From: Cryoendolithus antarcticus
Taxonomy: Eukaryota > Ascomycota > Dothideomycetes > Cladosporiales > Cladosporiaceae
Length of the DNA stretch: 64,000 nucleotides
Assembly (NCBI GenBank): GCA_002077065.1
Contig: NAJO01000075.1
Coordinates: 60,852-124,851, forward strand
Direction: 5' to 3'
Both the position numbers and the translations under genes were made by a program. Positions within the stretch are counted from its first letter, which is position 1. Every line of letters begins with the position of its first letter. Under the pieces are notes generated by a model. The model saw only the letters and a list, made by a program, of their open reading frames with translations. It had not been told where the DNA came from and did not search any database. This document shows, piece by piece, positions 18,853 through 21,800 of this stretch.

Positions 18853-21800
18853 CTAGTCCTTCTCCAAATCGGCCAGAATCTTCTCGCCCTTAGCCCGTGC
18901 GCTCTCAATGTCTCCCACCATGTAGAAAGCACCCTCGGGCAGATCGTCGCACTCGCCGCTCATGATGCTCTTGAATGACCGGATCGTGTCCTTGAGATCC
19001 ACAAGCGTGCCCTCAATACCCGTGAACACCGTAGCGACGGTGAACGGCTGGCTCAAGAAACGCTGCAGCTTGCGCGCACGCTCGACGGTCAGCTTGTCGG
19101 CTTCCGACAACTCGTCCATGCCTAGAATGGCAATGATGTCCTGCAGCGACTTGTACTCTTGCAACATCTGCTGCACCTTGGTGGCAGTGTCGTAGTGGTC
19201 GTCACCAACCACGCGGGGGTCCAACATGCGGGACTTGGAATCGAGAGGGTCGACGGCGGGGTAGATGCCCAACTCGGAGATACCACGGGACAACACAGTC
19301 GTGGCGTCCAGATGGGCGAAAGTGGTGGCTGGGGCGGGATCGGTCAAATCGTCGGCGGGCACGTAGACGGCTTGCACCGAAGTGATACTGCCCTTCCTCG
19401 TGGTGGTAATGCGCTCTTGCATAAGTCCCATGTCGACGGCGAGGGTGGGTTGGTAACCGACGGCGGAGGGGATACGACCGAGAAGGGCGGACACTTCGGA
19501 ACCGGCTTGCGTGAACTGCAAGATGTTAGGTGTGAAGTGAAGGACGGAGGGAGGGGAGACTCGCTCTAAAAATATTATCAATGAAGAGCAGGACGTCCTG
19601 TCCCTCTTCGTCGCGGAAATATTCAGCCACTGTCAAGCTATGTGAGAGTTAGTAGTTGCTTGTGGTAGTGCAAGTCGTGTCGTGTGAGAATGGAAATGAA
19701 ATGAAGATCCGGCGGTGAGAGAGAGGTTTAAGCCTTCCGGAGGGCAGCGGCGGCGACACGCTTCCTGTGCATGGGTCCTTCCTTGTGTCTCCTCAGGGAG
19801 TAGTCGTTGTCGAAGGGCTTGTCGCAGGTATCACGATAGTGCTCCTTGTTGGCCTTCGCAGCGGCTCTCACGGCAGCAACGGCGACCGCACTCTTGGTAA
19901 TGGGTGCTTTCTCGACACCATTGAAGCAGTCTTCGTGATTTTGAGAGAGCAAGTGGGTATCGAGTGCCGACTGGGTGGCGAGAGGTATGTCGCAGTCGCC
20001 GCAGTAGAAGCGCTTCTCGTCTTTGGCCTTGTTGCGAACCTTCTCCGCGGTCTTGAGAACCTTCTCGGGGTTCTTCTCTTGCCAGTCGAGCCTCTGCTGT
20101 GGTGTCTCCGCTCGGTACCCATCAAGGTCTTCGGCACGTCTCTTCGTCCGGTGCTTCACGCTTCTTGCATTGCCATTCTCTTTCATCCTGGCACGGCGGA
20201 GTGTAGCCACAGTCTCTAGCTCTTCAGGACTGAGTGTGAGGTCACCCCGGATTGACTCCTTCAACGACAGGTGGCCACAGAGCGGTACCCATTTGACCCG
20301 GTCAAAAGGCCACAGAAGTAAGTGGTCGTAGTACATGTCGGTGATGGCTTGCATCTTGGCGTGAAAGGCGATGGTAAAGGCGGCTTCGAGGGCTAGGAAG
20401 AGGGCCCTTGCACGAGGCTGGACGCCGTCTGAAGGGATAGGAGTCGAGCAGATCATGCCCATGTGAACGAGCTCGTAGCCGTCGTTGAAAGCCTTCTCAA
20501 CGAAGCGAGGGAGAGTGGTGCGGGTGCGGTAGCACGAAGCCCTAGCTGGCACTCCGACCTCGGAATTGGTAGCGGAGCCGATATATAGTCTAGGGCGATG
20601 TCCAGGCTTTCTGAGTACTAAGGCGGAGGAGGCCCAGCAGCCAGCAAGTGGTGGAGGTAAGGACTCGAACCAGCAGATGTGAGGAGGATCAGGTGAGTCG
20701 AGGACTGCTTGCATGTCCGATGGCAGAGACAGAGGACAGCACTCCTAGATGCTGTCGAAACTGACCCGATCACTGAAGACAGTCTTGAACTCAGGGTTCA
20801 TGTACCATTGAGGAGCGTTAATGTGAATGAGATTGAACGTCAGGTCGGAGAGCTTCTGATTGACCGGGTCAAAAGTGGGCTGATCGGAGTCGTCCTCAGA
20901 GTCGAGAGTGAGGTCGATGAGCTCGTCACCGGAAGTCACACCTTGTGGCTTCATTACAGCGTGATCGGCAGGTGATCGGCAGTGATGGCAGTGCACTGAT
21001 GGCGATGTGAGAAATTTGGACGTCTTCCAGTACCCGTGAGAGCTGCCTGGCTCAGAAGGTGAGGCTTGTAGTAATGACAGTACAGCCGAGTACGTCGAGA
21101 TGAGGCCTGCAGTGACGACGACGTACAGCCTAGTATGTCGAGGTGAGGCTCGCAATGGCAACGGCAGTACAGCCGAGTATGTCAAGAAGTGAGGCTCGCA
21201 ACGACGACGACGTACCACCGAGTACGTCGAGGTGAGAGGAGAGGAGACGAGATGCCATGGCGAAAGGTATGTCGAGGTGGCACCATAGCTGCCTCCCAGT
21301 GCCTGCCAGTGTTGGACGGGTGTGTGGGTCCAGTCCCGGCGCACCGGGCGCGTTTTGCTACATACGGGGAAGGAACACGTGCTAAAAAAAGGACAACTCA
21401 CCCAGTCAAAGCAACACGGGCACGGGCGCCTGGAGGCTCGTTCATCTGACCGAACACAAGCGCGACCTTGGACTCGCCGTCGAGGTTGATGACACCGGTC
21501 TCCTGCATCTCGTGGTACAGATCGTTGCCCTCACGGGTACGCTCACCGACACCAGTGAAGACAGAGTAACCACCGTGGGCCTTGGCGATGTTGTTCTGCA
21601 TGTCCGTCAGCTCCTGCACATTCTTACAGCGCACTGTATGCACTCACAATGAGCTCCTGAATGAACACAGTCTTGCCGACACCAGCGCCACCGAAAAGAC
21701 CGATCTTGCCACCGCGAGCGTAAGGAGCGAGCAAGTCCACAACCTTGATTCCCGTGATCAGAATCTCAGCGGAAGTCGATTGCTCGGTGAAGGCAGGCGG

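Follow-up and report, generated by a model that had tools for sequence, protein, structure and literature searches.

The ATP2 gene of the Antarctic rock fungus Cryoendolithus antarcticus (Dothideomycetes, Cladosporiales) contains a 1764-nucleotide (nt) spliceosomal intron that itself holds, in the sense direction, a nuclease-like open reading frame (ORF). The gene lies in a stretch of 64,000 nt, here called the window, on contig NAJO01000075.1 (C123 in our numbering), and the genome that was searched comprises 47 Mb on 149 contigs. We consider it probable that a mobile spliceosomal intron with a homing-type endonuclease, copied by repair and spliced out, is present here as a decayed copy. Computation gives a family of such ORFs, a nuclease fold, sense placement in introns of seven core genes, empty homeologous sites, and raised exon divergence beside three of the seven elements; DNA cutting, homing by repair, the route of expression, and splicing are what we infer. 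A preliminary description of this DNA had already read it as a nuclease-bearing selfish intron in an essential gene, and the intron family, the nuclease fold, and the empty homeologous sites support that reading. With somewhat less confidence, we further propose that spliceosomal homing introns are a cellular class, in which a family combining GIY-YIG and C2H2 domains invaded seven genes and, elsewhere, aconitase in Dothideomycetes, creating introns at intronless sites, and that nuclease-driven copying is a route of intron gain.

The ATP2 intron and its ORF

ATP2 occupies the minus strand of the window from about 22460 to 18853, and an NCBIfam atpD match (E value 3e-120) extends across 18853-19632. 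The long intron has precisely the limits given in the preliminary description, with the donor GTGAGT, the branch point TACTAAC, and ACATAG all present; its 3' end is TACTAACTCTCACATAG, with the last base at 19638. When the exons are joined (21402/19637), the frame is kept across the VALTG/LTVAEYF junction that had been proposed, and the product, ...ARVALTG-LTVAEYF..., is identical to the peptide of the ATP2 homeolog on contig C81. The parts of the gene are as follows.

19638..21401, minus strand: ATP2 spliceosomal intron with the nuclease-like ORF, 1764 nt, placed by splice signals, frame, and the homeolog peptide after exon joining
21396..21401, minus strand: 5' splice site GTGAGT
19648..19654, minus strand: branch-point consensus TACTAAC
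21404..21622, minus strand: codon-aligned part of the exon on the 5' side of the intron (NVQELTD...RARVALT), which departs from the homeolog at 7 of 72 third positions
19565..19633, minus strand: exon on the 3' side of the intron (TVAEYF...IFR); its divergence from the homeolog is unusually high, at 11 of 21 third positions
19516..19564, minus strand: short GC-AG intron (GCGAGT...CAG), 49 nt, after the downstream exon and without a counterpart in the C81 homeolog
18856..19515, minus strand: last exon block (FTQAG...LEKD)

No Rfam family is found in 19500-21600 up to an E value of 1, so that no group I or II intron is recognised (this search covered, among the seven introns described below, that of ATP2 alone). 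A mobile intron of group I or II was rejected as a candidate, since Rfam recognises no ribozyme core in the ATP2 intron. A 43-bp tandem repeat of 3.6 copies is present in the 5' part of the intron, at window positions 21080-21236.

The nuclease-like protein is encoded as follows.

20745..20954, minus strand: N-terminal part in the same frame (MKPQGV...FDSI), 69 codons; the ATG starts at 20954, and a TAG lies at 20745-20747
19728..20744, minus strand: main open frame, 338 codons plus stop; 328 amino acids from the ATG starting at 20714
20265..20642, minus strand: GIY-YIG-type nuclease domain, which matches the I-TevI catalytic domain by structure comparison and is aligned with relatives
19935..20012, minus strand: first C2H2 zinc finger, sound (Pfam zf-C2H2_jaz, E value 1.1e-7)
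19767..19838, minus strand: second C2H2 finger, degenerate, its first zinc-binding cysteine being absent in the alignment

The 328-amino-acid ORF of the preliminary description thus exists in the sense direction, but it is only the 3' part of a longer frame that has 69 more N-terminal codons before the TAG. No stop is found at this position in the copy within the TEF1 intron or in the proteins P0001-P0003. Of the GIY-YIG-like residues that had been noted, YIG, Arg, Tyr, and Glu remain; in the alignment, WASS takes the place of the WAIY or WGIY of relatives, so that the GIY tyrosine is lost and the catalytic set of the window copy itself is incomplete. Likewise, two zinc fingers of the C2H2 type are found, as had been said, and Pfam detects C2H2 fingers and nothing else in the window ORF, but only the first is intact. 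Because of the in-frame TAG, the replaced tyrosine, and the lost cysteine, the window copy is regarded as decayed, and its sequence points to a decayed member of a GIY-YIG family. Its best relatives have E values of 2.3e-66 in the same genome and 1.2e-84 among public proteins; since relatives exist in both, chance is ruled out as the origin of the ORF.

A family of ORFs in core genes

At least nine family members are present in the genome, the same nine being recovered with three query proteins, and a reading of their surroundings places seven of them between exons of a conserved gene, on the sense strand. The preliminary description had suggested a search of the introns of other conserved genes, and homologous ORFs are indeed found in six further core genes of this genome. 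The hosts are as follows.

ATP2, contig C123
TEF1, contig C68
pyruvate carboxylase (PYC), contig C13 at 568k
clathrin heavy chain (CHC1), contig C13 at 589k
PEPCK (PCK1), contig C73
KAR2/BiP, contig C91
URA2, contig C60

Pfam and NCBIfam identify the host exons as ATP synthase beta, EF-1 alpha, pyruvate carboxylase, clathrin, PEPCK, and Hsp70 and, for URA2, as carbamoyl-phosphate synthase and aspartate carbamoyltransferase; the naming of KAR2/BiP is based on the HDEL end.

The family introns are 1.3-1.9 kb long and divergent, and each has a nuclease-like ORF. All seven have a donor GT, preceded in TEF1 by one additional G, and a branch-like sequence (CTAAC, CTGAC, or CTAAT); AG stands at the expected 3' end in five, PYC and URA2 being without it. 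The TEF1 ORF, at L018:4240-5409, runs for 390 codons without a stop, and no residue of the catalytic set is missing from it. Those of PYC and CHC1 are open over long stretches, the former with one TGA near the start and YIG changed to YVS, the latter with FIG in place of YIG and no second finger; the ORFs in ATP2, PEPCK, KAR2, and URA2 are interrupted. Protein identity among the members in the genome reaches 42-43%, and a DNA search with the whole ATP2 region finds no near-identical copies, only the region itself and the C81 homeolog.

The catalytic set of GIY-YIG nucleases consists of the GIY tyrosine, the YIG tyrosine, an arginine, a tyrosine or histidine, and a glutamate. The family alignment has the pattern (W/F)(G/A)IY, then YIGSGT, Arg, Tyr, and Glu, which we take to be the GIY-YIG pattern. 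In 34 aligned rows, the glycine of YIG, the arginine, and the glutamate are invariant and the three tyrosines are present in at least 90%, so that the family has the catalytic set. Structure comparison, which the preliminary description had also named as a check, gives the GIY-YIG fold, the I-TevI catalytic domain being matched after the Foldseek candidates were realigned. The nuclease, present or past, would have had two C2H2 zinc fingers and an I-TevI-like GIY-YIG domain in addition to its N-terminal region. Slx1 and UvrC are cellular repair enzymes. The intron family is distinct from these: the genome holds two Pfam GIY-YIG (PF01541) matches, L001 and L002, at loci separate from the introns, and the family itself has no PF01541 match. 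An origin as a copy of these PF01541 genes was rejected, given that they lie elsewhere.

Outside this genome, profile searches gave overlapping sets of 41 and 66 proteins at an E value of at most 0.001, mostly without an organism name; the named fungi with the family are Elsinoe australis, Neocucurbitaria cava, Alternaria gaisen, Tothia fuscella, and C. antarcticus, the last represented by the public proteins B0A48_05890 and P0065 (B0A48_02468). A weak match to a fish zinc-finger protein was rejected as unrelated. In three gene models the ORF is joined to a host gene, namely ATP2 (E. australis), PYC (C. antarcticus), and aconitase (an environmental sequence). The E. australis model has the 3' junction with ATP2 that is seen in the window, the 5' side falling outside the model; the aconitase model has the fusion before KREDVKKGEPNSI. 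The window ORF groups in a tree with P0005 (62% over 58% of the query; support 94/64).

Empty sites and exon divergence

The genome appears to be duplicated, in that every one of the seven host genes recurs as a second copy on a different contig; near the sites, exon DNA is about 79-96% identical between homeologs. When joined exon flanks were used as the query against the homeologs, four had no intron at the site, the match running straight across the junction (TEF1, with its homeolog on C77, 96%; KAR2, 93%; PEPCK, 82%; CHC1, 79%). Intron-free alleles of the same site thus exist for TEF1, CHC1, PCK1, and KAR2. The ATP2 homeolog (C81) has a 53-nt intron (GTATGT...CCCAAG) 4 nt further 3'; in URA2, the intron of the homeolog is 56 nt long and displaced by 1 nt, and in PYC it is short, roughly 80 nt, and lies at about the same position. 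Either the long introns were gained in one copy or they were lost from the other; the four intronless sites would favour gain.

Break-repair copying of an intron often copies the flanking exon too. Divergence between carrier and homeolog was compared at third codon positions up to 120 nt from the junction and at those at least 240 nt away, and it is locally raised beside three of the seven elements. In CHC1, 35/76 near and 131/680 far positions differ (p 6.5e-7). The values for PYC are 22/77 and 86/463 (p 0.033) and, for its 3' side alone, 38/77 and 79/386 (p 4e-7, with the 240-nt cut-off picked after the profile had been seen). In the downstream exon of ATP2, 11/21 positions differ, compared with 69/414 in the other three exon blocks (p 3e-4).

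A palindrome in the family introns

A palindrome, TTGACCSGGTCAA, is found twice within the ATP2 intron.

20293..20305, no strand assigned: palindrome TTGACCSGGTCAA, copy 1, inside the reading frame that the intron carries
20860..20872, no strand assigned: palindrome TTGACCSGGTCAA, copy 2, inside the reading frame that the intron carries

These are the two occurrences in the window, where 0.07 are expected, and the palindrome is present in all seven family introns. With at most one mismatch, TTGACCNGGTCAA is present 14 times within the seven introns, which total 11,321 nt, and a single time in the 112,085 nt around them; shuffled introns contain a mean of 0.02. Across the genome it has 15 exact sites, six of them in the seven introns, compared with one site for the reversed pattern, and it is absent at up to two mismatches from the two non-intronic members. 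In the TEF1 intron, one copy stands just before the ATG and one just after the stop. The palindrome may serve as a promoter element or a binding site, or it may be left over from insertion.

An 889-codon frame lies between two TTGACCSGGTCAA copies at L026:2974-6168 (C13:363973-367167) and has a weak Hom_end (PF05204) match, with an E value of 0.0011 and 19.5 bits against a cut-off of 21.1. From its sequence, a second kind of homing nuclease may share this palindrome. At L029:4776-4829 (C74, palindrome at 223782), a 54-nt intron of an aconitase gene, with no ORF, is built around one palindrome copy, which starts a few bases after the GTGAG donor. This intron, whose position differs from that of the fused environmental aconitase model, might be related to the long introns as an empty or collapsed form. 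Palindromes are also found in or beside long, unnamed, mutually similar frames at L027:4762 and L028:4776 (C13:758761 and C60:877775). In appearance these frames resemble tyrosine-recombinase elements, but Pfam gave no match for any of the three that were tried.

A model for intron mobility and its alternatives

In the model that we favour, a nuclease made from the intron would recognise the coding sequence of a conserved gene where it is uninterrupted, and cut it. With an intron-bearing copy as the template for repair, the intron, together with some flanking exon, would then be copied into the cut gene. Removal of the intron from the mRNA by the spliceosome would allow the essential host gene to tolerate the element, and rare cutting at related sites would found new lines in other conserved genes.

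Several results weigh against this model. Two of the nine members (on C84 and C24) lie outside introns of conserved genes, the one on C84 adjoining an apparently shortened transporter gene. Splice junctions are odd in three carriers, with the extra G before GT in TEF1 (L018:3825-3835) and no AG in PYC (L019:5815-5825) or URA2 (L025 near 4130, minus strand); these may reflect gene decay, tolerated in a duplicated genome, or assembly error. The Pfam GIY-YIG family (PF01541), against which the preliminary description had proposed to check the 328-amino-acid ORF, matches none of 12 members (the window ORF, P0002, and ten more) at E values up to 10. Furthermore, Foldseek alone is not significant (I-TevI at rank 2, E value 0.27), a strong Z being reached only with the realigned candidates. 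Divergence is not raised beside the element in four of the seven genes (TEF1, PCK1, KAR2, and URA2), the pooled effect over all seven is modest (133/527 versus 575/2751, p 0.016, with ATP2 entering by its near sites only), and a second diverged ATP2 stretch (15/30) is situated in the last exon, away from the junction. Finally, the ORFs at the ATP2 site of the window and of Elsinoe are 48-50% identical and are not sisters in the tree.

The main rival, which we regard as unlikely, is a transposon with GIY-YIG and zinc-finger domains that inserts into or creates introns in the manner of introners, its placement in core genes reflecting survival where splicing masks the insertion. The number and divergence of the members in one genome, the two that lie outside such introns, and the TTGACCNGGTCAA copies in every intron, which in TEF1 flank the ORF, would all be compatible with this explanation, and introners have been reported from fungi (PMC4457414, PMC9860276). 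However, the lack of near-identical copies, the confinement of the seven intronic members to very conserved hosts, the ATP2 3' junction shared with Elsinoe, and the raised exon divergence beside three elements argue against a transposon, and no inverted repeat is present at the ends of the four introns examined (ATP2, TEF1, CHC1, and PCK1).

It is a good deal less probable that the ORF is an old nested gene, inherited vertically in old introns without mobility and lost with the intron in the other homeolog. The occupied Elsinoe junction would be expected in that case, as would the short introns kept at or near the site by the ATP2, PYC, and URA2 homeologs. Yet those of ATP2 and URA2 are offset by 4 nt and 1 nt, four homeologs are intronless at the site, a single ORF family occupies seven unrelated genes on the sense strand only, and the two ATP2 ORFs are not sisters. 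Chance formation of the ORF within an intron that had expanded, or a fault of the assembly, would accord with the stop and lost catalytic residues of the window copy and with the three odd carriers, but is very improbable given full-length homologs in other fungi and metagenomes and independent placements on six contigs, one of them in public annotation as B0A48_05890.

Implications and comparison with known systems

The origin of new spliceosomal introns is an old open question. The mobile intron model offers a concrete, testable cellular route, a nuclease carried by the intron itself. If it is true, nuclease-driven copying, rather than transposition or reverse splicing, is one real route of nuclear intron gain, and decayed copies such as that in ATP2 remain as ordinary long introns. 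Because occupied and empty copies of these essential genes coexist in a single duplicated genome, each of the three steps, splicing, cutting, and copying, is open to test. Core marker genes such as TEF1 and ATP2 could carry selfish, possibly horizontally copied stretches, and the public gene models of a "C2H2 protein" fused to ATP synthase, pyruvate carboxylase, or aconitase would be explained.

Introners are short, near-identical, and free of ORFs, whereas the family introns are 1.3-1.9 kb long, divergent, and each equipped with a nuclease-like ORF; many near-identical copies were not found in the genome search with ATP2-region DNA. The introner-like elements of Dothideomycetes are similar in being mobile, in becoming spliceosomal introns, and in belonging to the same class of fungi (PMC4457414, PMC9860276).

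Group I introns with I-TevI-type GIY-YIG nucleases differ in that the ATP2 intron has spliceosomal signals, has no Rfam match, and is nuclear rather than of phage or organelle. Nuclear rDNA group I introns of protists and fungi also carry homing endonuclease genes, but these are reported to be His-Cys nucleases in self-splicing rDNA introns (PMC9548176). The WHO elements of yeasts resemble the family in being nuclear homing elements with a nuclease and a zinc finger that target a core gene, FBA1; in contrast, they are intein-like (HO-related), lie downstream of the gene, and replace its 3' end without an intron (PMC7282813).

The closest comparison is with shintrons, the spliceosomal homing introns of mirusviruses described in November 2025 (PMC12768974). 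According to that report, 132 of 334 shintron endonucleases are GIY-YIG, the hosts are mostly virion genes of giant viruses, and the association of a nuclease with a spliceosomal intron is stated as not seen before. No cellular case was found among the titles and abstract openings listed, a scope that leaves out most subscription journals. Like shintrons, the fungal introns are of spliceosomal type, lie in conserved genes, and carry an endonuclease gene; they also share a preference for target genes, the proposed homing, and, as seen for that of ATP2, the lack of a group I or II signature. They differ in their nuclear core metabolic and housekeeping hosts, in the empty homeologous sites within the same genome, and in their C2H2 fingers. 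The decayed ATP2 copy and its relatives in introns of six other core genes suggest that mobile introns of the kind known from giant viruses occur in cells too.
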